The notes below the pieces were generated by a model. That model saw only the letters and a list, made by a program, of their open reading frames with translations. It had not been told where the DNA came from and did not search any database. Shown here one piece after another: positions 33,942 through 51,925 of a stretch of 64,000 nt of DNA. Positions within the stretch are counted from its first letter, which is position 1. Each line of letters opens with the position of its first letter. The stretch is taken from NCBI GenBank assembly GCA_009377695.1, contig WHTP01000015.1, positions 1 to 64,000 on the forward strand, written 5' to 3'. Origin of the DNA: Hyphomicrobiales bacterium (GTDB lineage: Bacteria; Pseudomonadota; Alphaproteobacteria; Rhizobiales; Xanthobacteraceae). Made by a program: the position numbers and the translations under genes.

Positions 33942-34002
33942 CGCGGACTCCTGATTCCGTAAGAGCTGGCTCCCGGAGCAGCGCGCCCGGGACACAAAAA
34001 CC

Positions 34003-35034
34003 TCAGTAATGATCCTCGAAGCGCTTGGCCAGTTCGTCGATGTTGTCCGGCGGCCAGCCCGGCACTTCCATGCCGAGATGCAGGCCCATCTGGGCCAGCA
34101 CTTCCTTGATCTCGTTGAGCGACTTGCGGCCGAAATTCGGCGTGCGCAGCATTTCCGCTTCGGTCTTCTGAACCAGATCGCCGATGTAGACGATGTTGTC
34201 GTTCTTGAGACAATTGGCTGAGCGCACGCTGAGCTCGAGCTCATCCACCTTCTTGAGGAAGGCGGGGTTGAACGCGAGGTCCGGAATCGCCTCCGAGACA
34301 ACCTCCTTGCGGGGCTCCTCGAAGTTCACGAACACATTGAGCTGATCCTGCAGGATGCGCGCGGCGTAGGCGACCGCATCATCCGGGCTCAACGCGCCGT
34401 TGGTCTCGATCTGCATCGTGAGCTTGTCGTAGTCGAGGATCTGGCCCTCGCGGGTGTTCTCGACCTTGTAAGAAACCTTACGCACCGGCGAGTAGAGGCT
34501 ATCGACCGGGATCAGCCCGATCGGCGCGTCCTCGGGACGGTTACGGTCGGTCGGCACGTAGCCCTTGCCGGTGTTGACCGTGAACTCCATACGGATCTCG
34601 GCGCCCTCATCGAGCGTGCAGAGCACGAGGTCCGGATTGAGAACGACGATGTCACCCACCGTCTGGATGTCCCCGGCGGTGACCTGTCCCGGTCCCTGCT
34701 TCTTCACCACCATGCGTTTGGGGCCTTCGCCCTGCATCTTGATGGCGATGTCCTTGATGTTGAGGACGATGTCGGTGACGTCCTCGCGCACGCCTGGGAT
34801 CGACGAGAACTCGTGCAGCACGCCGTCGATATGGACGGACGTCACGGCGGCGCCTTGCAGCGACGACAGAAGAATGCGCCGCAGCGCATTGCCCAGCGTC
34901 AAGCCGAAGCCGCGCTCGAGCGGCTCGGCGACCACGGTCGCCTCACGCTTCGGGTCGGCGCCGGCCGCCACCTGCAGCTTGTTCGGTCGAATCAGTTCCT
35001 GCCAGTTCTTCTGGATGGTCACGTTGGCACCCAT
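34003..35034 (-). CDS. rpoA: RNA polymerase alpha subunit
   Basis: This 343-residue alpha subunit has the assembly domain ([38 protein letters not shown]) and the C-terminal promoter-contact domain with [13 protein letters not shown] and [17 protein letters not shown]. The ATG at 35034 ([11 protein letters not shown]) is chosen because it matches the start I recall for related alpha subunits and gives the normal length. A GTG at 35022 is also possible. The frame is open a further 37 codons back to an ATG at 35145 that overlaps the rpsK stop and has a better ribosome site (see findings). Confidence 0.93.
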
Positions 35035-35141
35035 CGCGTTGAGTGGCGCGGCATTGGTCCGCGCGTCCCGTTCCGCCCCGTGGGAAAATTCGTTCGCAGC
35101 AGACGGGTCGGGCGTCCGCTGGAGGAGTCCATGTTCGTCGT

Positions 35142-35531
35142 TCATACGCGCCGCCTCTTGCGTGGCCGGCAACCATTGTGCGGGATCGGAGTCACGTCGC
35201 GGATCGAGGTGACAGTGAATCCCGCGGCCTGCAATGCGCGCAAAGCCGACTCGCGGCCCGACCCAGGGCCAGCGACTTCGACTTCAAGCGTGCGCATGCC
35301 ATGTTCAGACGCTTTCTTGGCGGCGTCTTCGGCCGCGACCTGCGCCGCATAAGGCGTCGACTTGCGCGAGCCTTTGAAACCCATCGTGCCGGCGGACGAC
35401 CAAGCAATGGCGTTGCCCTGCGCGTCGGTAATCGTGATCATGGTGTTGTTGAACGTCGCATTCACATGCGCGACACCGGACGCGATGTTCTTGCGTTCGC
35501 GCCGGCGGACGCGGGTGGCTTCCTTGCCCAT
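35142..35531 (-). CDS. rpsK: 30S ribosomal protein S11
   Basis: This 129-residue S11 shows [20 protein letters not shown] and the C-terminal [15 protein letters not shown] that contacts the platform of the 30S subunit. Length is normal. It sits in the standard alpha-operon order rpsM-rpsK-rpoA-rplQ. Confidence 0.98.
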
Positions 35532-35611
35532 TCTCGGTCCTTTCGAGACCCGGCAGCCTGAGCCGGGTCCATACGATCCTGTGTCTAACGATCCTCGTCG
35601 TCGACTGCGGC

Positions 35612-35980
35612 TTACTTCTTCTTGCCGGCAATCGGCTTCGCCGGACCCTTGCGGGTGCGGGCGTTAGTGTGCGTGCGCTGGCCGCGGACCGGAAGGCCGC
35701 GCCGATGGCGTAAGCCCCGATAGCAACCGAGATCCATGAGCCGCTTGATGTTCATCGCGACCTCGCGCCGGAGGTCGCCCTCGACCATGTAATCGCGATC
35801 GATCATTTCGCGGATCTGGAGCACTTCCGCATCGGTCAGTTGGGACACCCGGCGCTCGCTCGGGAGTCCGACTTTATCCATGATTTCGTGCGCCTTGGCG
35901 GGCCCGATGCCATGGATGTACTGCAATGCGATCACGACGCGTTTGTTGGTCGGTATATTGACTCCGGCGATGCGGGCCAC
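35612..35980 (-). CDS. rpsM: 30S ribosomal protein S13
   Basis: This 122-residue S13 carries [20 protein letters not shown], the helix-two-turn-helix [15 protein letters not shown] and the basic tail [21 protein letters not shown] that reaches the subunit interface. Length is normal. The 180 bases upstream, to the adenylate kinase stop, probably contain a promoter or leader for the alpha operon, though no box was recognised. Confidence 0.98.
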
Positions 35981-36160
35981 TGCTTCAACTCCTGCTGCCG
36001 GCCGGCAAGATGGCGGCCCGGTCCTGATTCCAGCCTGCGCGCACAGTCCGCAAACGGTAACGCGACACCCTCCCCGTTTCCCGGGGCTCGGTATCGTTTG
36101 ATCCTCTCCGACTGGATGCGCGACTTATTAGGGGATTCAACGGGGTTTCGTCAACCTCTG

Positions 36161-37027
36161 CTAGCGTTTGGACTTGCGCGTGGCAGCCTTGCGGCTCCCG
36201 CGGGCGGACTTAGAGGCCGACCTCGCGACAGCCCTGCGGGCTGGAGCCCGGATTTTGCCCCTGGCGACGGCGGTTTTGGCCTTTCGGGCCCTGGCTTTCG
36301 CCTTCGGCTTCGCCACTGCCTTGGGCTTCTTCCCGGCCAGGACCTTCGTTTTCGCGCCAGACGCTTTGCCTTTGCCGTCTGACGTTTTGGAACTCAGCCC
36401 TGTTCGTGTGGGACTTTTTTCCTTGGGCGCCGGCTTCCGAATCGGGCGGTCGGTCAGCGCGCGATGGATCGCCGCCTCGACCTCCTCGATCGACTGCATG
36501 CCGTCCACCGACTTCAGTGTCCCCTGCCAGCGGTAGTAGTCCACGAGCGGCGTGGTCTGCTCCCTGTAAGCGTCGACGCGACGCTTGAGCACCTCGGGAT
36601 CGTCATCGGATCGCAACGGCTCGCCGCGCGCTGCCGATTCCCGCATGCGGTTCTCGATCCGGCTTTGCAAGATGCCGCCGTCGACCTTGAGCTCGATCAC
36701 GCCGTCGAGCTTGAGGCCCTTCTCCTTAAGCATCTTGTCGAGCGCGACCGCCTGCGGAACCGTCCGCGGAAAGCCATCGAGGATGAAGCCGTTCTTGGCA
36801 TCCGGCTCTCCGATGCGGTCAGACACGATCGTCACCACCATATCGTCAGGCACGAGTTCGCCGCGATCCATGATCGCTTTGGCGCGCAGGCCAACCAACG
36901 TGCCGGCCTTCACCGCCGCGCGCAACATGTCCCCGGTCGAGAGTTGCACGATGCCGTGCTTCTGAACGAGCCGTTGCGCCTGCGTGCCCTTCCCCGCCCC
37001 CGGAGGACCGAGCAAGATCAGTCTCAT
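36161..37027 (-). CDS. adk: Adenylate kinase with a long basic C-terminal tail
   Basis: Residues 1-194 are a normal short-lid adenylate kinase, interconverting ATP + AMP and 2 ADP: P-loop GPPGAGKGT (7-15), [10 protein letters not shown], the [11 protein letters not shown] motif, and [16 protein letters not shown]. Residues 195-288 are an added low-complexity tail made almost only of K, R, A, S, P and G (for example [18 protein letters not shown]), resembling histone H1 or AlgP-type tails. The kinase domain alone is the usual length. The gene overlaps secY by four bases. The tail may bind nucleic acid or ribosomes, or may vary in length without consequence. Confidence 0.95.
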
Positions 37028-38355
37028 CTCCGCCGCCCCCGCAGCTTCGAACGCTTGATCAATCCTTCATACTGATGCGCGAGCAGATAGCCCTGCACCT
37101 GCGCCACCGTATCCATGGTGACACTGACCACGATCAGCAGCGATGTGCCGCCGAAATAGAACATGCCCGGCGCATAGGAGAGGATGATCTCCGGCAGCAA
37201 GCACACGAGCGAGAGGTACACGGCGCCGATGCAGGTGATGCGCGTGAGCACATAGTCGATGTATTCGGCGGTGCGCTCGCCCGGCCGGATGCCCGGAATG
37301 AAGCCGCCATGCTTCTTGAGGTTGTCGGCGGTCTCGGTCGGATTGAACACGATTGCCGTATAGAAGAACGCGAAGAACACGATCATCCCGATGTAGAGAA
37401 CCAGGAACAGCGGCCGACCGTGGCCAAGCTGCGTGACCAGCGACTGGAACCATTCCGGGCCCTGCCCGGCGTTGAAGTTCGCCACCGTCGTCGGCAGAAG
37501 CAGCAGCGACGAAGCGAAGATCGGCGGGATCACGCCGGCGGTGTTGAGCTTGAGCGGCAGGTGCGAGGACTGGCCTTCGAACATGCGGTTGCCGACCTGG
37601 CGTTTCGGATACTGGATCAACAGCCGCCGCTGCGCGCGCTCCATGAACACGATGAAGGCGGTGACCACCAGCGCCATCACCGCCACCATCAGGATCAGCG
37701 GGGTCGACAGCGCGCCCTGGCGGCCGAGCTCGAGGGCGCCGGCGATCGCCGATGGCAGCTCCGCAACAATGCCCGCCATGATGATGAGCGAGATTCCGTT
37801 GCCAATACCGCGCGACGTAATCTGCTCGCCGAGCCACATCAGGAACATGGTGCCGCCGGTGAGCGTGATGACGGTCGAGATGCGGAAGAACCAACCCGGC
37901 TCGCTCACCACGTTGCCGGCGCCTTCGAGGCCGATGGCGATGCCGAACGCCTGAAGCGCAGCAAGCGCCAATGTGAGATAGCGGGTGTACTGGTTGATGA
38001 CCTTGCGGCCCGCCTCGCCTTCCTTCTTGAGCTGCTCAAGAGTGGGCGACACCGTCGTCATCAACTGGATGATGATCGACGCCGAAATGTACGGCATGAT
38101 GTTCAACGCAAAGATCGCCATGCGGTTGATGCCACCGCCGGAGAACAGGTTGAACATGCCGAGGATGCCGGTGGCCTGCGACCGGAAGATCTGGTCCCAG
38201 GCCTGCGGGTCGATGCCGGGCAGCGGGATATAGGTGCCGAAGCGGTAGACGAGCAGCGCGCCGAGCGTGAACCAGATTCGTTTCTTGAGTTCCTCGGCCT
38301 TGGCGAGCGCCGAGAAATTAAGGTTGGCCGCAAGTTGTTCCGCTGCTGACGCCAT
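37024..38355 (-). CDS. secY: Protein translocase subunit SecY
   Basis: This 443-residue ten-helix channel subunit carries [12 protein letters not shown] in the first periplasmic loop, [27 protein letters not shown] (plug and helix 2 region), [20 protein letters not shown], and the [18 protein letters not shown] loop near the SecA contact. Length is normal. It is in the usual place between rplO and adk and overlaps adk by four bases. Confidence 0.97.
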
Positions 38356-38435
38356 CCTGATCCTCCGGTCCGCCCCTGAAATCGCCCCTTACCGCCTTCC
38401 TATATGGAGGGCCGGCCAATTATTTCACATGGGGC

Positions 38436-38930
38436 TCAGGCCGGCTTTTCCTCTGCCGCCTCCCGCTTGGGCGCCAGGATCGTCACCGAACCGCCAGCCT
38501 TTTCCACAGCCGCCACCGCCGATTTCGAGGCGCCCCAGACGGAAAACGCGAGCTTGGCCTTGAGTTCGCCCATACCCAGGAGCCGCACGCCATCGAGGGC
38601 ACGGCGGAGCACGCCAACCTTGACCAGCGCCTCCGCATCGACCGTGGCGCCAGTCCCGAGCTTGCCCGCATCGACGGCCGCCTGGATGCGGTCGAGGTTG
38701 ACCTCGTTGAGCTTCAACGCGAACGGCGTGTTCTTGAAGCCGCGCTTGGGCAGGCGGCGATGCAATGGCATCTGGCCGCCCTCGAAACCCTTGATGCGCA
38801 CGCCAGAGCGCGCGGTCTGACCCTTGCCGCCGCGGCCGCCGGTCTTGCCCTTGCCGGAACCAATGCCGCGCCCGATCCGGGTGCGGGTCTTGCGGGCTCC
38901 CGGCCGGTCGGCGAGCTGATTGAGCTTCAT
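38436..38930 (-). CDS. rplO: 50S ribosomal protein L15
   Basis: This 164-residue L15 starts [22 protein letters not shown] and contains [15 protein letters not shown] and [18 protein letters not shown]. The start follows GAGGA. The C-terminus [10 protein letters not shown] is slightly longer than the E. coli form. The upstream gap to rpmD is filled by a palindromic repeat. Confidence 0.97.
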
Positions 38931-38954
38931 GACGTCGTCCTCGTTCTCTCTCCT

Positions 38955-39033
38955 GTCATCGCCGGACTTGTCCCGGCCATCCACGTCTTGCTTTCAGAAG
39001 ACCTGGATGCCCGGCATAAAAGCCGGGCATGAC
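38955..39033. repeat. RIME-like palindromic repeat between rpmD and rplO
   Basis: GTCATCGCCGGAC...CCCGGCCATCCACGTCTT on the left answers AAGACCTGGATGCCCGG...AGCCGGGCATGAC on the right. The same CATCCACGTCTT core occurs in the repeat between rpoB and rpoC. It ends six bases from the rpmD stop codon. Confidence 0.75.
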
Positions 39034-39038
39034 GAAAA

Positions 39039-39227
39039 CTACTTAGCCTCAACCACCTGCACGAGATGCTTCACCTTGGCGATCATGCCGCGGATCTGCG
39101 CCGTGTCCGGCACCTCGGCCACGCGATTGATGCGGTTGAGGCCAAGCCCGATCAGGGTCTCGCGCTGGGTATGGTGACGGCGGATCGGGCTGCCGACCTG
39201 CTTGATCTTGATCACGTTCTTGCTCAT
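39039..39227 (-). CDS. rpmD: 50S ribosomal protein L30
   Basis: This 62-residue L30 begins [20 protein letters not shown] and contains [19 protein letters not shown], with a normal length. It lies between rpsE and rplO in the standard spc-operon order. The longer open frame that reaches back into rpsE is not used. Confidence 0.96.
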
Positions 39228-39257
39228 GTCCTGCTCCGCGCGCCTAGCTCTTTGATT

Positions 39258-39307
39258 GTGCATCATATTTATCCGAAAACCGGATCCCGCTTTTCGGGAT
39301 GATGCAC
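39258..39307. repeat. Palindromic repeat between rpsE and rpmD
   Basis: GTGCATCAT...CCGAAAACCGG is followed by CCCGCTTTTCGGG and ATGATGCAC, closing on the first base of the rpsE stop codon. The GAAAACCGG core recalls a common Hyphomicrobiales repeat and is shared with the element at 41042. Confidence 0.7.
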
Positions 39308-39867
39308 TAGTCCGCGCTCTGCTCAGCCTCGCTGGTATCGCGGCGGCGTGCCTGCAGCGCCGACACCTTGATGTTGCGGCGTGCGGCGACAGAACGCGGC
39401 GAATCCTGGCGCTTGAGCGCGTCGAAGGTCGCCCGCACCATGTTGTAGGGATTGGACGAACCAAGCGACTTCGCCACGACGTCCTGCATACCGAGCGTCT
39501 CGAACACCGCACGCATCGGACCGCCGGCGATGATGCCAGTGCCGGGCGGCGCCGCGCGCAGCACCACCTTGCCGGCGCCATGACGGCCCTGCACGTCGTG
39601 ATGCAACGTGCGGCCCTCGCGCAGCGGAACGCGGACCAGGCCGCGCTTGGCCGCATCGGTCGCCTTGCGGATCGCTTCCGGCACCTCGCGCGCCTTGCCG
39701 TGGCCGAAACCGACGCGGCCCTTCTCGTCTCCAACGACGACCAGCGCCGCGAAGCCGAAGCGCCGGCCGCCCTTCACGACCTTCGCCACACGATTGATGT
39801 GGACGAGCTTGTCGGTGAATTCGCTTTCTTCCCGCTCTCGGTGCCGCTCGCGTGGTTCACGTGCCAT
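39307..39867 (-). CDS. rpsE: 30S ribosomal protein S5
   Basis: This 186-residue S5 contains [41 protein letters not shown] and [19 protein letters not shown], with the RNA-binding and S5-fold halves both present. The stop codon is embedded in the end of a palindromic repeat. Order and length are as expected for the spc operon. Confidence 0.97.
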
Positions 39868-39912
39868 ATTGATGTTCCGTTTGGTTCGGGCGCCGCCCGT
39901 TCACAGAATGCC

Positions 39913-40275
39913 TTAGAATTGCAGACCGCCTTCGCGCGCCGCCTCGGCGAGCGCCTTGACGCGGCCGTGATAGAGATAGGCGCCGCGATCGAACACGACC
40001 TCCTTGACCCCCTTGGCGGCCGCCCGCTCAGCGAGCAGCTTGCCGATCGCCTTCGCCGCCGCGATGTTGGCGCCGTTCTTCATGCTGCCGCGCACGTCCT
40101 TCTCGATTGAGGATGCGGAGGCAACCGTCGCGCCCTTAACGTCGTCGATGACCTGGGCGTAGATGTGCTTCGACGAGCGGAAAATGGACAGCCGCGCGCG
40201 GCCGTGGGCAGCACGGCGGATCGCCCGTCGCACTTGCGCCTTCCGTCTTGCGGTCCGATCACTGAGCCTGGACAT
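39913..40275 (-). CDS. rplR: 50S ribosomal protein L18
   Basis: This 120-residue L18 contains [36 protein letters not shown] and ends [26 protein letters not shown], the 5S rRNA-binding form. Normal length. It starts ten bases after a small uncharacterised gene that separates it from rplF, an arrangement not seen in the standard operon. Confidence 0.97.
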
Positions 40276-40285
40276 GGTCCGGTTC

Positions 40286-40480
40286 CTACTTCTTCTTCCC
40301 GCCGTCCATGCGGACGGCGATCAGGCTGCGCAGCAACTTGCGCGATTCGATTGTCTTTCCACCCACGGCATCCACCCGCTCCAGGATGGACGGTCGCCGC
40401 GGTCTCGACTGGGTCTCCTTGCCGCGAAGGATGATGACGTCCCCCGTGCGCAGATGGCCGAGAAGCTGAGCGACGCTCAT
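40286..40480 (-). CDS. Uncharacterised 64-residue basic protein inside the spc operon
   Basis: This small gene fills the space between rplF and rplR, where normally no gene lies. Its ATG overlaps the rplF stop codon (ATGA) and is preceded by GGAAGGAAAG within the rplF end, a strong coupled ribosome site. It ends TAG ten bases before rplR. The protein starts [20 protein letters not shown], is rich in arginine and lysine, and ends VRMDGGKKK. Codon use is strongly GC at third positions and uses ATC, CTG, CGC and AAG, like its ribosomal neighbours. I recognise no family. It could be an accessory ribosomal or ribosome-assembly protein, or a short leader-type frame; the first reading is favoured by codon use. 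Confidence 0.6.
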
Positions 40481-41010
40481 TTCTTCTTTCCTTCCTTGCG
40501 GAAGATGTATTCACCCGCGTGCTTGATGCCCTTGGCCTTGTAGGGCTCCGGCGGACGGTAATCGCGAATCTCTGCCGCCACCTGCCCGACCCTCTGCTTG
40601 TCGATTCCAGTGATGACGATCTCGGTCGGCTTCGGCGTCACAATCGCGATCCCCTCGGGGATCGGATAGACGATATCGTGGCTGTACCCGAGCGCGAGCT
40701 GGAGGTTCTTGCCCTGCACCGCAGCGCGATAGCCGACGCCGCTGATCTCGAGCCGCTGCTCGAAGCCCGTGGTGACCCCGGTCATCAGGTTGGCAACCAA
40801 CGCCCGGTAGGTACCCCACATGGCGCGAGCGCGCTTGGTCTCATTGCACGGGTCGACCTGGATCGAACCCTTGTCCATCGTGGCCTTCACATCACCGTGC
40901 AGCACGATCTGCAGGGCGCCCTTCGGGCCCTTCACCTTGACGGTCTGGCCGTCGACATTGGCCGTGACCCCCGATGGGATCGAAACCGGCTTTTTTCCGA
41001 CACGTGACAT
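40477..41010 (-). CDS. rplF: 50S ribosomal protein L6
   Basis: This 177-residue L6 starts [15 protein letters not shown] and contains both L6 repeats, with [19 protein letters not shown] and the C-terminal [26 protein letters not shown]. Normal length. Its stop codon overlaps the start of the 64-residue unknown gene. Confidence 0.97.
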
Positions 41011-41041
41011 GGCGTTGTTCCGATCGTTATCCGATTTGCTT

Positions 41042-41113
41042 GAGCATGATCTTTTCCGAAAACCGATTTCCACTCCGGATCAAGTCCGGGGCAGGCTTCT
41101 CGAGATCATGCTC
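41042..41113. repeat. Palindromic repeat between rpsH and rplF
   Basis: GAGCATGATCTTTTCCGAAAACCG at the left and the GATCATGCTC end at the right are inverted copies around a degenerate middle (CCGGATCAAGTCCGG). Its end coincides with the rpsH stop codon (41113-41115). This GAGCATGATC...GATCATGCTC element is a common repeat in this order. Confidence 0.8.
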
Positions 41114-41511
41114 TAGAACACCGTACACAGGATTTCACCGCCCACATTGGCATCCCGGGCGGCGTGGTCGGCCATCACACCCTTGGGCGTGGACACGATC
41201 GCAACGCCGAGCCCATTGTTGATGCGCGGCAGGGTCTTGACCGAGGCGTAGACACGACGGCCTGGCTTCGACACCCGCGAAATCTCGCGGATCACGGGCG
41301 TGCCATCGAAGTACTTCAGCTCGATCTCAAGCTCGTTGCGGCCGTTGGCGTGCTCGACCGATGCAAAGCCACGGATGTAGCCTTCGCTCTTCAGCACCTC
41401 GAGCACGCTTTCGCGCAGCCGCGAAGACGGCGACGAAACTTTCGACTTATTCCGCATTTGCGCATTATGGATGCGCGCGATCAAATCGCCGAGCGGATCA
41501 TTCAATGCCAT
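41113..41511 (-). CDS. rpsH: 30S ribosomal protein S8
   Basis: This 132-residue S8 begins [19 protein letters not shown] and contains [18 protein letters not shown] and [24 protein letters not shown], the conserved rRNA-binding end. Normal length. In many bacteria S8 is the autoregulator of the spc operon. The start is set by homology. Confidence 0.97.
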
Positions 41512-41522
41512 CGCTCGTGCTC

Positions 41523-41828
41523 CTACCAACTTGACTTCAGAAGACCGGGAATCATGCCCTTGGAGCCAAGCTCCCGGAGCGCGATACGGCTGAGCTTGTG
41601 CTTGCGATAATACGCGCGCGGGCGCCCGCTGATCTCGCAACGATTGCGGATCCGCGTCGGCGACGAATTGCGCGGCATCTCCGCCAGCTTCAGCGAGGCC
41701 GCGAAGCGTTCCTCGATCGGCTTGCTCTTGTCGCCCGCGATCGCTTTGAGCCGCGTACGGCGGCCCGAGAACTTCTTGGCCATCCTGCGACGCCGATTGT
41801 TCTTCTCGATCGAACTTTTCTTCGCCAT
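41523..41828 (-). CDS. rpsN: 30S ribosomal protein S14 (long, zinc-free form)
   Basis: This 101-residue S14 starts [20 protein letters not shown] and ends [21 protein letters not shown]. It lacks the CxxC pairs of the zinc-binding short form, so it is the long zinc-independent type usual for proteobacteria. It lies in the standard position between rplE and rpsH. Confidence 0.97.
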
Positions 41829-41865
41829 TAAGCTCTCCTGGGTATCCGCGTTTGAGGACTTACCC

Positions 41866-42573
41866 TCACTGCCGGAACGGGAAGTTGAATGCGGTCAGCA
41901 ACGCGTGCGCCTCTTCGTCCGTCTTGGCGGTCGTGCAAACCGTGATGTCCATGCCCCAGGAGTCGGACGCCTTGTCGTAGTCGATCTCCGGGAACACGAT
42001 GTGCTCTTTGATGCCGAGCGTGTAATTGCCGCGCCCGTCGAAGCTCTTGGGATTGAGGCCGCGAAAATCGCGCACGCGCGGCAGCGCGATCGTGATCAGC
42101 CGATCCAGGAACTCGTACATGCGAGCCTTGCGCAGCGTCACCTTGCAGCCGATCGCCTGGCCGTCGCGCAGCTTGTAGGTCGCGATCGACTTGCGCGCCT
42201 TAGTGACGACCGCCTTCTGTCCGGCAATCTGCGCCAGGTCGGCGGCCGCCTGATCGACCTTCTTGCGGTCGCTCACGCCCTCACCGATGCCCATGTTGAT
42301 GACGACCTTCTGGATCACCGGCACCTGCATGGGGTTCTTGTAGCCATGCTGCTCGGTGAGCTGCTTGCGCACCACCTGGTCGAAGAGCGTGCGCAGCCGC
42401 GGCGTGACGCGCTCCTCGTGACGCTTGCTCTTGGACTTCGCACCAGCATCCGCCTTCGGCCGACTCTTGTCTGCGCCGCCTTTGGCCTGCTGTTGCGGCT
42501 GCTTCGGCTCGCCGCTCTTCTCCGCCTTCGGACCCTTCGGGGCCTTCGGGGCTTTCTCTTTGGTGTCAGCCAT
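41866..42573 (-). CDS. rplE: 50S ribosomal protein L5 with a lysine/alanine-rich N-terminal extension
   Basis: Residues from about 52 form a normal L5 ([58 protein letters not shown], ending FNFPFRQ). Residues 1-51 are an added stretch of K, A, P, G, S and Q (for example [18 protein letters not shown]) absent from typical 179-187-residue L5 proteins. The ATG at 42573 overlaps rplX by eight bases. The extension would protrude from the central protuberance of the 50S subunit, near 5S rRNA. Confidence 0.95.
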
Positions 42574-42892
42574 CGATCTCAACTCCCGAGCGCTTGGCCA
42601 CGCGGACTTTCTTCCGGTCCAGTCCTTCGCCCACGTATTTGAAGCCGACGCGCGTCGGCTTGTTGTCCTTCGGGTCGAGCAGCGCGAGGTTCGACAGGTG
42701 AACGGATGCCTCCTTCGAGACGATGCCGCCTTCCTGCTGCGCGGTCTGCTTCTGGTGACGCTTCACCATGTTGACGCCACGCACCAGCGCACGACCCTCG
42801 GCCGGGCGGACCGAGATGACCTCGCCATTCCGGCCCTTGTCGCGGCCACTGAGCACGACGACACGGTCGCCCTTCCTGATCTTGGCCGCCAT
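42566..42892 (-). CDS. rplX: 50S ribosomal protein L24
   Basis: This 108-residue L24 starts [20 protein letters not shown] with the KOW motif, followed by [20 protein letters not shown] and [16 protein letters not shown]. Normal length. Its ATG overlaps the rplN stop codon by one base (TGATG), so it is translationally coupled. Confidence 0.97.
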
Positions 42893-43260
42893 CACAGCAC
42901 CTCCGGGGCCAGCGAAATGATCTTCATGTGGTTCTTGGCGCGCAGCTCGCGCGGAACCGGTCCGAAAATGCGCGTGCCAACCGGCTCGGCCTGAGCGTTG
43001 ATCAGTACCGCCGCATTGCGGTCGAAGCGGATGATCGAGCCGTCGGCGCGTTTGATGTCCTTCGACACCCGCACGATCACGGCTTTCATCACCTCGCCCT
43101 TCTTGACGCGTCCGCGCGGGATCGCCTCCTTCACCGACACGACGATGACGTCGCCGATGGTCGCGTACTTGCGCTTGGACCCGCCCAGCACCTTGATACA
43201 CATCACGCGACGCGCGCCGGAGTTGTCCGCCACGTCGAGGTTTGTCTGCATCTGAATCAT
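42892..43260 (-). CDS. rplN: 50S ribosomal protein L14
   Basis: This 122-residue L14 starts [20 protein letters not shown] and contains [21 protein letters not shown] and the closing [20 protein letters not shown]. Normal length; first gene of the spc operon, 36 bases after rpsQ with no clear terminator between. Confidence 0.98.
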
Positions 43261-43296
43261 GATGCTCTCCTCGCTCTCTCTTTCCGCGCGACGCGC

Positions 43297-43545
43297 TTAA
43301 ACGACCTTTTTCTTCTCGCCTCGGACCGCTTCCCAGCACTTGAGCCGAGAGATCGGCCGCCGTTCTTCGATCCAGACTATGTCGCCCACGTGATATTCGT
43401 TGGTCTCGTCGTGGGCATGGTACTTCTTGGTCCGGCGCACCGTCTTCTTCATCACCGGATGGGTGTAGCGGCGCTCGACGCGCACGACGATGGTCTTGTC
43501 CTGCTTGTCGCTGACGACAGTGCCTTGGAGCGTGCGCTTCGGCAT
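43297..43545 (-). CDS. rpsQ: 30S ribosomal protein S17
   Basis: This 82-residue S17 starts [20 protein letters not shown] and contains [23 protein letters not shown] and the [19 protein letters not shown] end. Normal length. It closes the S10 operon after rpmC. Confidence 0.97.
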
Positions 43546-43555
43546 CTCGAAACCT

Positions 43556-43828
43556 CTATTTGGACGTCGTCTTCGGGCGCGCGACGCGCTTCCGAGGAGC
43601 TTTTGTTGCGGTCAGCGCCGCGCCAGCCACCGGCCCTTGGCCGGCACGCTTCTGCGAGGCGATAGTCTTGATCCGGGCGATGTCGCGGCGCACCTGACGG
43701 ACGCGCGACGTATTCTCGAGCTGGCCGGTTGCCCGCTGGAAACGCAGGTTGAACCGCTCCTTCTTGAGCTTCAGGAACTCGTCGTCGAGCTGGTCGGGAC
43801 TCATCGCCCTGAGATCGGCGGATTTCAT
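43556..43828 (-). CDS. rpmC: 50S ribosomal protein L29 with an extended basic C-terminus
   Basis: This 90-residue L29 starts [20 protein letters not shown] and carries the two-helix core [33 protein letters not shown]. Residues from about 60 are an extra lysine/alanine/proline-rich tail ending [16 protein letters not shown]29 is usually 63-70 residues. L29 lies beside the exit tunnel, so the tail could touch nascent chains or targeting factors. A second ATG sits immediately upstream. Confidence 0.94.
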
Positions 43829-43838
43829 CATTCGGCTC

Positions 43839-44252
43839 CTACTCGGCGATGCGCTCGACGAAGCGCGTCTTGATCGGCAGCTTGGCGGCCGCCAGACCGA
43901 GCGACTCCCGCGCCAGAACGACCGACACGCCGTCGATCTCGAAAATGATGCGGCCGGGTTTGACGCGCGTGACCCAGTACTCCGGCGCGCCCTTGCCCGA
44001 GCCCATGCGCACTTCGAGCGGCTTCTTCGACACCGGCACGTCCGGGAACACCCGAATCCACACCCGCCCCGCACGCTTCATATGGCGCGTGAGCGCACGG
44101 CGCGCGGCTTCGAGCTGCCGAGCGGTGACGCGATCGGGCTCCAATGCCTTGAGCCCGAACTGGCCGAAGGCAAGGCTGTTGCCGGACGTGGCAATGCCCT
44201 TGATCCGGCCCTTGTGCGCCTTGCGGAACTTGGTGCGCTTCGGTTGCAGCAT
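43839..44252 (-). CDS. rplP: 50S ribosomal protein L16
   Basis: This 137-residue L16 starts [20 protein letters not shown] and contains [22 protein letters not shown] and [22 protein letters not shown], including the arginine near the peptidyl-transferase centre. Normal length and position. Confidence 0.98.
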
Positions 44253-44287
44253 GGCTTACGCTCTTCTTTCCGAATCTCGTCTGTCGC

Positions 44288-44986
44288 TCAGGCGGCGTCG
44301 CGGCGCGGACGTCCCGCATCGCCTTCCGCCAGCTTCTTGTCCTGCGCCATCGGGTCGTGCTCCATGATCTCGCCCTTGAAGATCCAGACCTTGACGCCAC
44401 AGGTGCCGTAGGTGGTGAACGCGGTCGCCACGCCGTGGTCGACATCCGCGCGCAGCGTGTGCAGCGGCACGCGGCCTTCGCGATACCACTCCATGCGCGC
44501 GATCTCGGCGCCGCCAAGCCGCCCGCTGCAGTTGATGCGGATGCCGCCGGCACCGAGCCGGATCGCCGACTGCACCGCGCGCTTCATCGCGCGGCGGAAC
44601 GCGACGCGGCGCTCGAGCTGCTGCGCGATTGATTCCGCGACGAGCTGCGCATCGAGCTCGGGCTTGCGGATCTCGAGGATGTTGATGACGACGTCCGACT
44701 GCGTCAGCGCCGCAACCTTCTTGCGCAGCTTCTCGATGTCGGCGCCCTTCTTGCCGATGACCACGCCCGGACGCGCCGAGTGGATGGTGACGCGGCACTT
44801 CTTATGCGGACGCTCGATCACGATCTTCGAGACGGCGGCCTGCTTGAGCTCTTTGGCGAGTTCCTTGCGGATCGCCATGTCCTCGTGCAGCAGCTTGCCG
44901 TACTCGCCCTTGCCGGCGTACCAGCGCGAGTCCCAGGTGCGGTTGATACCGAGCCGCAAGCCGACCGGATTGACCTTCTGACCCAT
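44288..44986 (-). CDS. rpsC: 30S ribosomal protein S3
   Basis: This 232-residue S3 starts [20 protein letters not shown], has the KH domain [19 protein letters not shown] and the C-terminal half with [28 protein letters not shown]. Normal length, ending in a short basic tail GRPRRDAA. Confidence 0.98.
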
Positions 44987-44996
44987 CGGTCCTCTC

Positions 44997-45380
44997 CTAC
45001 GACGCCGCAGCTTCGACCTGACGCACGACGATGGTCAGGTTCGAGAACGGCTTGAAAATTCGGCCGACACGGCCACGGCCGCGCGGGGTGGAACGCTTCA
45101 TCACGAGCGCCTTGCCGACGAACGCCTCGGAGACGACGAGATCGTCGACGTCGAGATCGTGGTTGTTCTCAGCATTGGCGATCGCCGACTCCAGGCACTT
45201 GCGCACGTCGCGCGCGATGCGCTTGCGCGAGAATTCGAGGTCGGCGAGCGCCATCGACACTTTCTTGCCGCGGATCAGGCCCGCGACCAGGTTGAGCTTC
45301 TGCGGGCTCACCCGCAGCATGCGGGCGACCGCTTTGGCTTCGCTATCGGACAGGCTGCGCTCGCGCTTTTTTTTGCTCAT
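44997..45380 (-). CDS. rplV: 50S ribosomal protein L22
   Basis: This 127-residue L22 starts [20 protein letters not shown] and contains [20 protein letters not shown] and the tunnel-lining hairpin segment [21 protein letters not shown]. Position and length are normal. The start is chosen by homology. Confidence 0.97.
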
Positions 45381-45391
45381 CGCACCTTGCC

Positions 45392-45700
45392 TCAACTCGC
45401 TGCCGGCGCGGACGAACCGCCGCCCGTACGCTTGGCCTTACGATCTGACGAATGACCGTAGAACATGCGCGTCGGCGCGAACTCGCCGAACTTGTGACCG
45501 ACCATCTCCTCGGTGACCATCACCGGAATGTGCTTCTGACCGTTATAGACGCCGAACGTGAGCCCGACGAATTGCGGCAGGATGGTCGAGCGCCGACTCC
45601 AGATCTTGATCATCTCGTGACGGCCGGACGCGCGCGAGGTTTCCGCCTTCTTAAGCAGATAACCGTCGACGAACGGGCCTTTCCAGACTGAACGCGCCAT
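45392..45700 (-). CDS. rpsS: 30S ribosomal protein S19
   Basis: This 102-residue S19 starts [20 protein letters not shown] and contains [20 protein letters not shown] and [20 protein letters not shown]. The last ten residues ([10 protein letters not shown]) exceed the usual 92. Standard position between rplB and rplV. Confidence 0.97.
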
Positions 45701-45720
45701 GGGTGCCTACCTTCCGGTGC

Positions 45721-46560
45721 CTACTTCTTTTTCTTCCGCGCGTGGCGGCTCGAAACGATGAACTTGTTGGTGGACTTGTTCTTACGGGTCTTCTTGCCCT
45801 TGGTCGGGAAGCCCCACGGCGTGACCGGATGCCGGCCGCCCGAGGTGCGGCCTTCACCGCCGCCGTGCGGATGGTCGATCGGGTTCATCGTGACCCCGCG
45901 GTTGTGTGGGCGCCAACCCATCCACCGCTTGCGGCCGGCCTTGCCGATCGAGGTATTCATGTTGTCGGGATTCGACACTGCCCCGATCGTGCCTACGCAG
46001 CGGCCATTCACGAGGCGCTGCTCGCCCGAATTGAGGCGCACGATCACGTAGTCGCCGTCACGGCCGACGATCTGCGCATAGGTGCCGGCGGAACGCGCGA
46101 TCTGTCCGCCCTTGCCGATCTTAAGCTCGATATTATGGACGATCGTGCCGATCGGGATATTGCCGAGCGGCATGGCATTGCCGGGCTTCACGTCGACATG
46201 TTCGCCGGCGACCACGGTATCGCCCGCGGCAAGGCGCTGCGGCGCGAGGATGTAGGCCTGCTCGCCGTCGGGATACTTGACCAGCGCAATGAAGGCGGTT
46301 CGGTTGGGATCGTATTCGATCCGCTCGACATGCGCCGGCGCGTCGTAGCGGCGCCGCTTGAAGTCGACGACGCGATAGGTCTTCTTATGGCCGCCTCCTC
46401 GGAAGCGCACCGTGGTACGGCCGTTATTGTTGCGGCCGCCTGATGAGTGCTTGCCTTCGGTCAGCGCCTTGATCGGCGCGCCGCGATGCAGCCCGGCACG
46501 GTCAACGATGACGAGCTGCCGCTGGCTCGGCGTGACCGGATTGAAGGTCTTGAGTGCCAT
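45721..46560 (-). CDS. rplB: 50S ribosomal protein L2
   Basis: This 279-residue L2 starts [20 protein letters not shown] and contains the peptidyl-transferase-region segment [20 protein letters not shown] and [15 protein letters not shown] at the end. Normal length. It follows rplW as in other S10 operons. Confidence 0.98.
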
Positions 46561-46570
46561 CGTGCTCTCC

Positions 46571-46870
46571 TTACAGACCCGTGGTCACATCAATGGTGTG
46601 GCCCTCTTCGAGGGTCACGACCGCGCGCTTGGTGGGAGACTGGGTGCCGACGCTGCCGCGGAAGGCCTTAACCTTGCCCTTGCGGACGAGCGTGTTCACG
46701 CTCCTCACCTTGACGTCGAACAGCTTCTCAACCGCCTCCTTGATCTGCGGCTTCGTCGCCGTGCGCGCGACGCGGAACATCACCTGGTTCTTATCGGACG
46801 CCAGCGTCGCCTTTTCGGTGATAACCGGCGACAGAATGACGTCGTAGTGGCGCGGATCGCTCGTGCTCAT
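46571..46870 (-). CDS. rplW: 50S ribosomal protein L23
   Basis: This 99-residue L23 starts [20 protein letters not shown] and contains [26 protein letters not shown]. It sits at the tunnel exit and is the main contact for trigger factor and SRP. It overlaps rplD by four bases. Normal length. Confidence 0.97.
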
Positions 46871-47490
46871 TTGAACCGCGCCTCCAGCGCTTCCAGCGCA
46901 GCCTTGGTCAGCACCAGCTGTTGCCGCCGCAAAATGTCGTACACGTTGATGCCCTGCACCGGCAGCACATCCACGTTCGGAATGTTGCGGGCGGCCTGGG
47001 CGAAGCCTACATCGACCGCCGCGCCGTCGATGATCAGCGCGTTCTTGAGGCCGAGTTTCTCGAAATTCGCGGCAAGCGCCTTGGTCTTGCCGCCCTCGAT
47101 GGTGGCTTTGTCAACGACGACAATGCCGCCATCCTTCGCCTTGGCCGAGAGAGCGTGCTTGAGCGCAAGCACCCGCACCTTCTTCGGCAGGCCGATCTCG
47201 TGGCTGCGCACCACCGGGCCGAACGAACGGCCGCCGCCGCGGAACAGGTTCACCTTCGCTGGACCGTGACGGGCCGAGCCGGTGCCCTTCTGGCGATACA
47301 TCTTCTTGCCGGTGCGATTGATCTCAGCGCGGTTCTTGACCTTGTGCGTGCCGGCGCGGCGCTTGGCGAGTTGCCAGGTGACGCAGCGCTGCAGGATGTC
47401 AGGACGTGGCTCGAGCCCGAAGATCGTATCCGGCAGGTCGACCGAACCCGACGCGTTTCCGTCCTCGAACGACATGACTTTCAGTTCCAT
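46867..47490 (-). CDS. rplD: 50S ribosomal protein L4
   Basis: This 207-residue L4 contains [26 protein letters not shown], the tunnel loop, and the [19 protein letters not shown] end. In enterobacteria L4 autoregulates the S10 operon; no equivalent leader structure was recognised here. Normal length. It starts two bases after rplC. Confidence 0.97.
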
Positions 47491-47491
47491 G

Positions 47492-48229
47492 TCACGCGCC
47501 CTCCTGCTCGAGCTTCGGACTGGTCGGTCCAGGCTCCTCTGCGGGGCCGCCGTCAGGCAGACGGAACTTGCCAGGCTTCGGTGCGTCCTTGGGCAATGAC
47601 TTCTTCACGGCATCACGCATCGTGATCCAGCCGCCCTTGGCGCCGGGCACCGCACCCTCAACCAGGATCAGGCCGCGCTCGACGTCAGTCTGCACCACCT
47701 TGAGATTGAGCGTGGTGACGCGGTCCACACCCATGTGACCGGGCATCTTCTTGTTCTTGAAAGTCTTGCCGGGATCCTGACGTCCGCCGGTCGAACCGAT
47801 CGAGCGGTGCGAGACCGAAACGCCGTGGCTGGCGCGCAGGCCGCCGAAATTCCAGCGCTTCATGCCGCCGGCGAAGCCTTTGCCGATCGAGGTGCCCGTC
47901 ACGTCAACGAACTGGCCGACGACGAAGTGGTCGGCCGTGATCTCGGCGCCAACCGGGATCATTTCCTTTTCATCGACGCGGAACTCGGCGAGCTTGCGCT
48001 TGGGCTCGACCTTAGCGACGGCGAAGTGCCCGCGCATGGCCTTGCCCACCGTGTTGGTGCGGCGCGTGCCGGCGCCGAGCTGAAGCGCGGCATAGCCGTT
48101 CTTGTCCTTGGTGCGGTGGCCGAGCACCTGGCAATTGGCCAGGCGCAGCACCGTCACCGGCACGTGCTCGCCGCCGTCGGTAAAGACGCGGGTCATCCCG
48201 ACTTTCTGAGCGATCACTCCGGAACGCAT
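47492..48229 (-). CDS. rplC: 50S ribosomal protein L3
   Basis: This 245-residue L3 starts [20 protein letters not shown] and contains [28 protein letters not shown], the loop near the peptidyl-transferase centre. The last 30 or so residues (rich in P, G and E) form a tail longer than in E. coli L3 (209) but seen in other alphaproteobacteria. Confidence 0.97.
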
Positions 48230-48257
48230 GGTTGTTGTCCCTATCCTGCCGTCCGGC

Positions 48258-48566
48258 TCAGAGCTTGATCTCGACGTCGACGCCGGCGGCGAGGTCGAGC
48301 TTCATCAGCGCGTCCACCGTCTGCGGCGTCGGATCGACGATATCCAAGAGACGCTTGTGCGTGCGCATCTCAAACTGTTCGCGGCTCTTCTTGTCGATGT
48401 GCGGCGACCGGTTCACCGTGAACTTCTCGATCCGCGTCGGCAACGGGATCGGGCCGCGCACTTGCGCACCGGTGCGCTTGGCGGTCGCCACGATCTCGCG
48501 CGTCGACGCATCGAGAATGCGGTGATCGAACGCCTTGAGCCTGATCCTGATGTTCTGGCCGTTCAT
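48258..48566 (-). CDS. rpsJ: 30S ribosomal protein S10
   Basis: This 102-residue S10 starts [20 protein letters not shown] and contains [42 protein letters not shown]10 also binds NusB in antitermination. It is the first gene of the S10 operon, following tuf with a hairpin between. The start five codons downstream of a possible earlier ATG is set by homology. Confidence 0.98.
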
Positions 48567-48585
48567 GAATAATTGCTCCAAGGCA

Positions 48586-48609
48586 AGGGCCGCGGCGAAC
48601 CGCGGCCCT
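48586..48609 (-). promoter_or_regulatory. Perfect hairpin between tuf and rpsJ
   Basis: AGGGCCGCGG-CGAA-CCGCGGCCCT has a ten-base-pair stem and a four-base loop. It separates the str and S10 operons; in the RNA the following bases are TTGCCTTGG, so it might act as a weak terminator, attenuator or processing site. Confidence 0.6.
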
Positions 48610-48619
48610 CACACCTCAC

Positions 48620-49810
<1,191 letters not shown>

Positions 49811-49852
49811 GGGACTCTCCGTTCTGGTCCTCTGGGGGATTAATCTTGCGGG

Positions 49853-51925
49853 TTAGGCGAACTTGGCCTGGATCTCGGCGGCGACCGCCGAAGGCACCTG
49901 TTCGTAGTGGTCGAACTGCATGGTGAAGGTGGCGCGCCCTTGCGACATGGAGCGCAGGTTCGAGACATAGCCGAACATGTTGGCAAGCGGCACCATCGCA
50001 CTGACGACGTTGGCGTTGCCGCGCATGTCCTGGCCCTGGATCTGGCCGCGCCGCGAGTTGAGATCGCCGATCACCGAGCCGGTGTAGTCTTCGGGGGTGA
50101 CGACCTCGACCTTCATGATCGGCTCGAGCAGCACCGACTTGCCTTTCTGCAAGGCCTCGCGCAAAGCGGCGCGCGACGCGATTTCGAAGGCGAGCGCCGA
50201 CGAATCGACTTCGTGATAGGCGCCGTCGATCAGGGACACTTTCAGATCGACGACCGGGAAGCCCGCGAGCACGCCGGAGCCGAGGACCGACTCCAGCCCC
50301 TTCTCCACGCCCGGGATGTATTCCTTCGGAACGTTGCCACCGATGATCTTGCTTTCGAACACGAAGCCACCGCCCGGAGGCAGCGGCTCGGCGAGGATCT
50401 TAACGCGCGCGAACTGACCGGTGCCGCCGGTCTGCTTCTTGTGCACGTAGTCGACGGTCTCGGTCCTGGTGATCTTCTCGCGATAGGCAACCTGCGGCGC
50501 GCCGATGTTGGCTTCAACCTTGTAGGTGCGTTTGAGGATGTCGACTTTGATGTCGAGATGGAGTTCGCCCATCCCCTTGAGAATGGTCTGGCCGGATTCC
50601 TGGTCGGTATGGACGCGAAACGACGGGTCTTCAGCCACGAGCTTCGCCAGCGCGACGCCGAGCTTCTCCTGGTCGGCCTTCGACTTTGGCTCGATTGCGA
50701 TCTCGATAACCGGATCGGGGAATTCCATCTTCTCGAGGATTACCTGCTTCTGCGCATCGCAAAGCGTATCGCCGGTGCGGACTTCCTTGAGGCCAGCGAG
50801 GGCGACGATGTCGCCGGCATAGGCCTCCTTGATGTCCTCGCGATTGTTGGCGTGCATCAGCAGCATGCGGCCGATACGCTCCTTGCGTTCCTTGGTCGAG
50901 TTGACCACGCCGGTGCCGCTCTCGAGGCGGCCGGAATAGATGCGGGCGAAGGTGATGGTGCCGACGAACGGGTCGTCCATGATCTTGAATGCCAGCATCG
51001 CCAGCGGCTCCTTGTCGTCCGCATGGCGCACGACTTCTTCGCCCTTGGAATCGATGCCCTTGATCGGCGGCACATCCAGCGGCGACGGCAGATAGTCGAC
51101 CACCGCGTCAAGCAACGGCTGCACGCCCTTGTTCTTGAAGGCGGAGCCGCACAGCACCGGGAAGAAGGCGCCCGTGAGGACCGCCTTGCGAATGAGCTTC
51201 TTGAGCGTCGCCTCGTCCGGTTCCTTGCCTTCGAGGTAAGCGGTCATGGCGTCGTCATCGAGCTCGACCGCCGCCTCGATCATCTTCTCGCGATATTCCT
51301 TCGCCTGATCGAGCAGGTCGGCGGGAATCTCATCGTCGCGATACTTCGCGCCAAGCGATTCGTCGTCCCACACGACGGCCTTCATGCGCACCAGATCGAT
51401 GAGGCCCTTGAACTGATTCTCCGCGCCGATCGGAAGCTGGATCGCCACCGGCTTGGCGCCGAGACGGTCGACGATATCCGTCAGGCACTGGAAGAAGTCC
51501 GCGCCCACCTTGTCCATCTTGTTGGCGAAGACGATGCGCGGGACCTTGTACTTGTCGCCCTGGCGCCAGACCGTCTCAGTCTGCGGCTCCACGCCCTGAT
51601 TGGAATCGAGCACGCAGACGGCGCCGTCGAGTACGCGCAGTGAACGCTCCACCTCGATGGTGAAGTCCACGTGGCCGGGAGTGTCAATGATGTTCAGCCG
51701 CTTGCCATTCCAGTACGCGGTGGTCGCAGCCGAAGTGATGGTGATGCCGCGCTCCTGCTCCTGCTCCATGAAATCCATGGTCGCAGCGCCGTCGTGCACT
51801 TCGCCGATCTTATGGCTCTTGCCGGTGTAATAGAGAATCCGCTCGGTCGTCGTGGTCTTGCCGGCATCGATGTGCGCCATGATGCCGAAGTTGCGGTAGT
51901 TCTCGATGGGATGGGCGCGAGGCAT
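49853..51925 (-). CDS. fusA: Elongation factor G
   Basis: This 690-residue translocase starts [20 protein letters not shown] and has G1 AHIDAGKT, G3 DTPGHVDF and G4 NKMDKVGAD, then the later domains with [29 protein letters not shown] and [16 protein letters not shown]. Normal length. The start is set by homology; a 35-codon upstream extension overlaps rpsG spuriously. Confidence 0.98.

Follow-up and report, generated by a model that had tools for sequence, protein, structure and literature searches.

A lineage-restricted small-protein gene probably lies between rplF and rplR in some Xanthobacteraceae

An open reading frame (ORF) of 64 codons, encoding a small basic protein, lies between rplF and rplR in the spc operon of the window, the whole 64,000-nt stretch of DNA analysed here, at 40286..40480 on the minus strand and in the same direction as the operon. 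The gene order of this operon is among the most conserved in bacteria. Frames of the same layout occupy the rplF–rplR junction of 7 other genomes. The ORF is very likely a real gene; it is not a conserved ribosomal gene. As a whole, the data are probably best read as a lineage-restricted gene in the spc operon, whose small basic protein would be made by reinitiation after L6.

The ATG of the ORF and the TGA of the upstream gene rplF (uL6; 40477..41010, minus strand; Pfam PF00347, E = 2.3e-43) overlap as ATGA (40480-40477). The ORF ends with TAG at 40288-40286 and, 10 nt on, rplR (uL18; 39913..40275, minus strand; Pfam PF00861, E = 5.8e-42) starts at 40275. An AGGAA over the ORF stop codon (40283..40287, minus strand) reads as the probable rplR ribosome site. 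The product has a net charge of +9 and ends in GGKKK. The initial annotation had described a 64-codon frame between the two genes, with this overlap, a 10-nt gap to rplR and a basic product with this C-terminal end, and all of these features were borne out.

Around the ORF, spc gene order is canonical in all 7 relatives (~15 kb read in each); the window's own genome comprises 5.85 Mb in 235 contigs. The operon shows some further peculiarities. The rpsH–rplF gap of the window (41011-41112) measures 102 nt, compared with 14–27 nt in the 7 relatives read, whose figures count the stop codon in. Inside it lies the stretch GCATGATCTTTTCCGAAAACCG, which occurs once in the window, has an exact copy among the loci of other genomes in L043 only, and looks like a palindromic repeat insertion of a kind known from Rhizobiales. 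In translation, the operon adenylate kinase (36161-37027) has a long lysine/alanine/arginine-rich C-terminal extension. In G033, a single-contig genome of another genus that also carries the ORF (locus L156), the computed adk–secY gap is ~1.2 kb, compared with −1 to 275 nt in the other six carriers read, possibly because a gene has been inserted there or because the adk alignment is partial.

The distribution of the ORF was assessed from 88 rplF–rplR junctions of 37 genera parsed by script, a non-random set drawn from the top-scoring L18 and L6 matches among 198 sampled family genomes, further fetched junctions and loci found with an rplF-end pattern; the G066 junction was chosen because its listed coordinates implied a 160-nt gap. 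The junctions form two sharp classes, 8 of 160–201 nt and 80 of 2–30 nt, with some gaps off by a few nucleotides because the rplR start was extrapolated from alignment (direct reading gave 189 nt for G033 and 163 nt for G066, instead of 186 and 160). All 8 long junctions contain AAATGA and an ORF of 55–64 codons, whereas AAATGA was found in 3 of the 80 short ones (Fisher P = 2.6e-9). The window's genome (G000) and 2 of its 7 genus-mates are carriers, as are five other genomes, each from a different further genus. The two genus-mates, G001 and G007, are metagenome-assembled Xanthobacteraceae genomes and form the g1 trio with G000; at the same junction they have a 63-codon homologue that is 52% and 49% identical to the window ORF, respectively, with L6 identities of 93% and 91% and L18 identities of 88% and 83%. 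The remaining carriers (G033, G066, G085, G035 and G104), found by junction reading and not by sequence search, have an ATGA-started frame of 55–62 codons. In seven carriers the ORF stop lies 10, 10, 10, 4, 12, 6 and 13 nt from the rplR ATG, and in G066 it overlaps the rplR start by one base (TAATG).

A search for conserved frames in relatives had been proposed as a check, and its outcome was divided: 2 of the 7 genus-mates keep the frame, but the other five have a plain junction of 9–12 nt, a clean absence and not a decayed copy. Two other carriers likewise have close relatives without the gene (G018 and G109 near G085; G141 and G073 near G104). In G004, G005 and G036 (loci L016, L015 and L153), rplF ends in AAATGA and the frame runs for only 5–10 codons; these short frames may be precursors from which such a gene could arise, or what is left after its loss.

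Wider searches gave a similar picture. The rplF-end pattern with exact AAATGA, which would miss carriers whose rplF ends differently, was present in 11 of 391 family genomes (53 of 391 at one mismatch); when these 11 were read, 8 had the ORF and 3 did not. A profile built from G000, G001, G007 and G033 (A1) found those 4 carriers in the 391 family genomes, missed the other 4 of the 8, and returned 18 further family genomes at E = 2e-4 or worse. Coordinate comparison by eye showed no other long gap among the further genomes listed for both L18 and L6. Order-wide, 1 of 348 genomes was found by the pattern and 1 of 397 by profile A1, both being the window's own, and the gene could exist outside Xanthobacteraceae.

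Protein identity is 11–36% between clades and 49–52% inside the g1 trio. Homology was assessed with leave-one-clade-out profiles, each score being compared with those of 1,000 shuffles. The g1 trio, G033, G085 and G104 each scored above 1,000 of 1,000 shuffles and G066 above 999, while G035 was the weakest, above 988 of 1,000. One against one, the g1 trio–G033, G085–G104, G104–G066 and G066–G035 comparisons stood out (0 or 1 of 1,000 shuffles as high), and most other cross-clade pairs did not rise above shuffles. The eight proteins have in common a short hydrophobic segment around residue 15 and a basic end, and 7 of the 8 start with MS or MT. A segment resembling LLRxLIA is present in the g1 trio, G033 and G085, degenerate in G104 and absent from G066 and G035. 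Profile comparison joins the eight proteins across clades, weakly for G035.

Codon usage also favours this frame. Using codon log-odds trained on 17 operon genes, the window ORF had a mean of +0.52, compared with −0.66 and −0.49 in the other forward frames and +0.11, −0.09 and −0.84 on the opposite strand. In all 8 carriers the ORF frame scored between +0.25 and +0.69 and both other forward frames between −0.30 and −0.95. Antisense scores reached +0.33 (G001) and were always below the ORF frame of that genome, the narrowest case being G007 (+0.25 versus +0.16). Coding-style codons, noted for the window ORF in the initial annotation, are present in all 8 carriers. Base shuffling of the window junction placed a stop in the last 15 nt with P = 0.019 and left the frame open past the junction with P = 0.15, so the window's single ORF is only mildly improbable. 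Per junction, a stop within the 15 nt preceding rplR arose in 1.9–3.2% of shuffles, compared with real closure in 8 of 8; because all 8 long junctions share one layout, the pattern is beyond chance. The proposal of a new small gene is supported by its occurrence in 8 genomes, the ATGA overlap in all 8 carriers found, the coding-style codons, the cross-clade homology and the lack of Pfam or NCBIfam matches above chance level.

Selection on the ORF was estimated by Nei–Gojobori dN/dS for the pairs G000/G001, G000/G007 and G001/G007 (values in this order throughout), a small basis of three sequences in an ungapped alignment. For the whole ORF, dN/dS was 0.66, 0.65 and 0.40, compared with 0.09–0.14 for L6 and 0.12–0.19 for L18 in the same trio. 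Values were 0.11, 0.18 and 0.16 for codons 1–20, 1.58, 1.73 and 0.77 for codons 21–44 (uncertain, the alignment being ungapped), and 1.22, 0.48 and 0.26 for codons 45–63. An excess of third-position changes was significant in two of the three pairs both for codons 1–20 (P = 0.003, 0.077 and 0.026) and for the whole ORF (P = 0.045, 0.52 and 0.015). As a control, the other frames were treated alike. Since one antisense frame does about as well over the whole ORF (0.63, 0.77 and 0.48), the whole-ORF values are not frame-specific. For codons 1–20, the ORF frame was lowest in all three pairs, with 0.33–6.68 in the five other frames, a result that offsets the unspecific whole-ORF values. From these comparisons, the first third of the protein looks constrained, the middle third does not and the last third is mixed. 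The gene is absent at 80 of the 88 junctions, and its 49–52% identity within the trio compares with 91–93% for L6 against that of the window. Both its patchy presence and its rate of change, which is much higher than that of L6 and L18, set it apart from core ribosomal proteins.

The same data bear on the main rival explanation, in which an inserted stretch has to be translated but yields an inert peptide: its translation would bring ribosomes to rplR in step with rplF and prevent transcription termination. A frame kept open on these grounds would fit the ATGA start and the closure at the rplR start seen in every one of the 8 carriers, the neutral-looking middle third, the lack of frame specificity in whole-ORF dN/dS and the low identity between clades. 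It sits poorly, however, with the low dN/dS of codons 1–20 in the g1 trio relative to the five other frames, and with protein-level similarity kept between clades, which a peptide serving only to pass ribosomes along would not need. We consider this explanation unlikely.

Ahead of the ORF start lies AAGGAAGG, a Shine–Dalgarno-like stretch (40490..40497, minus strand) within the rplF codons for RKEGKKK. The strong ribosome site claimed initially does exist as a stretch in the rplF end, but it is ordinary rplF coding sequence: AAGGAAGG is found in 87 of the 88 rplF 3′ ends, with or without an ORF, G002 being the exception. For this reason it is no evidence for the ORF, and its prevalence suggests that a new start can easily arise there.

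This ready site is also the premise of a further and considerably less likely alternative, that of a non-functional or selfish orphan, a DNA insert with an open frame tolerated at the rplF ribosome site and kept open by GC-rich composition. The near-universal AAGGAAGG and the occurrence of AAATGA without a long ORF in G004, G005 and G036 would fit such an origin, as would patchy occurrence. On a tree of L6 and L18, which is short (299 columns) and has 33 of 85 weak branches, a minimum of 5 changes is needed to place the 8 carriers, well-supported branches forcing 2 of these, and a single clade of all 8 was rejected (p-AU 0.00013). A clade of the g1 trio and G033, a grouping named after the data had been seen, was not rejected (p-AU 0.73, the constrained tree scoring better than the quick tree). 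Against an orphan stand the coding-style codons in all 8 carriers, the cross-clade profile similarity and the fact that all 8 frames close at the rplR start, which has a probability of ~0.02–0.03 per junction by shuffling. The patchy occurrence would be explained either by an older gene lost many times or by spread through operon recombination, and the short L6+L18 tree does not tell the two apart.

That the stretch is a structured RNA, or a copy of part of rplF or rplR, is very improbable: the window stretch folds with a z-score of only −0.51 and window 34000-50000 has no Rfam match, and, while the lysine-rich ORF end and the rplR ribosome site behind it look like the rplF end in genomes without the gene, hhalign probabilities are 0.9% (L6) and 0.1% (L18), hmmsearch scores of −2.0 to +1.8 bits are at best marginal against shuffles (lowest numbers of shuffles as high: L6–G066 8/500, L6–G007 20/500, L18–G066 36/500), and there is no tandem or long direct repeat (one repeat check covered the window, G085 and G104).

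In agreement with the initial impression that the product belongs to no nameable family, database matches were at chance level. The window protein matched no Pfam or NCBIfam model at E ≤ 10. Across all 8 proteins, Pfam gave a single match, to an unrelated family (E = 0.12), and no ribosomal family; NCBIfam gave two matches to single members (best E = 0.012), which we take as chance-level, and PHROGs likewise two to single members (best E = 0.041). Three weak matches to solved structures (best E = 0.04, a histidine-kinase/Gcn4p fusion chain) were read as chance. A phage or plasmid origin was also considered and set aside, since neither plasmids (best E = 4) nor phages (best E = 3) gave a credible hit to the window protein; a search of viral contigs with the g1 trio gave 12 pattern stretches, none confirmed. 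An AlphaFold model from three sequences was poor (mean pLDDT 58, pTM 0.29) and suggests, with low confidence, helices at residues 3–12 and 44–58 around an unstructured middle.

Lineage-restricted small protein genes translated by stop–start (ATGA) coupling are a general class in bacterial operons. The ORF resembles them in being short, in its overlapping start and in having no relatives found beyond a narrow lineage, but differs in sitting between two universal ribosomal-protein genes. We file its product as a new uncharacterized small-protein family of this known general kind. Among the titles and opening lines of abstracts returned by a literature search, no small rplF–rplR gene in bacteria was found. 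In archaea, the spc order is L6–L32e–L19e–L18, with extra ribosomal-protein genes at the L6–L18 junction (PMC10833476); extra genes at this junction therefore have a precedent. The ORF shares with L32e and L19e its position between the L6 and L18 genes. In contrast to these, the 8 proteins match no Pfam ribosomal family, and the gene is short, fast-evolving and missing from most of the parsed junctions.

Under the preferred reading of a lineage-restricted gene, ribosomes ending L6 would restart at the overlapping ATGA, with the purine-rich rplF 3′ end serving as the ORF ribosome site. A basic protein of 55–64 residues would be made, translation would stop at the rplR start region, and L6, the small protein and L18 would be produced in series at ribosomal-protein levels. 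Selection probably acts on the N-terminal segment of the protein and leaves its middle free, and the C-terminal segment, which carries the basic tail, is probably helical. Within this reading, the location and the basic tail tentatively suggest, as the most likely role, a peripheral factor that binds the ribosome or rRNA and serves as an accessory or in assembly; a ribosome-associated or assembly role had also been put forward in the initial annotation. A bolder and rather doubtful extension would be an undescribed ribosome-associated family, made in step with L6 and L18, fast-evolving and repeatedly gained, lost or exchanged in Xanthobacteraceae; its members might, for example, modify the ribosome in a lineage-specific way or defend it against an agent that targets the L6/L18 region of the large subunit.

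If true, a translated, fast-evolving gene between rplF and rplR would be either a ribosomal accessory that is free to change or a clear example of how new genes become established. The rplF end already bears a ribosome-site-like stretch, so that a small change creating ATGA would provide a start codon within an operon that is highly expressed.
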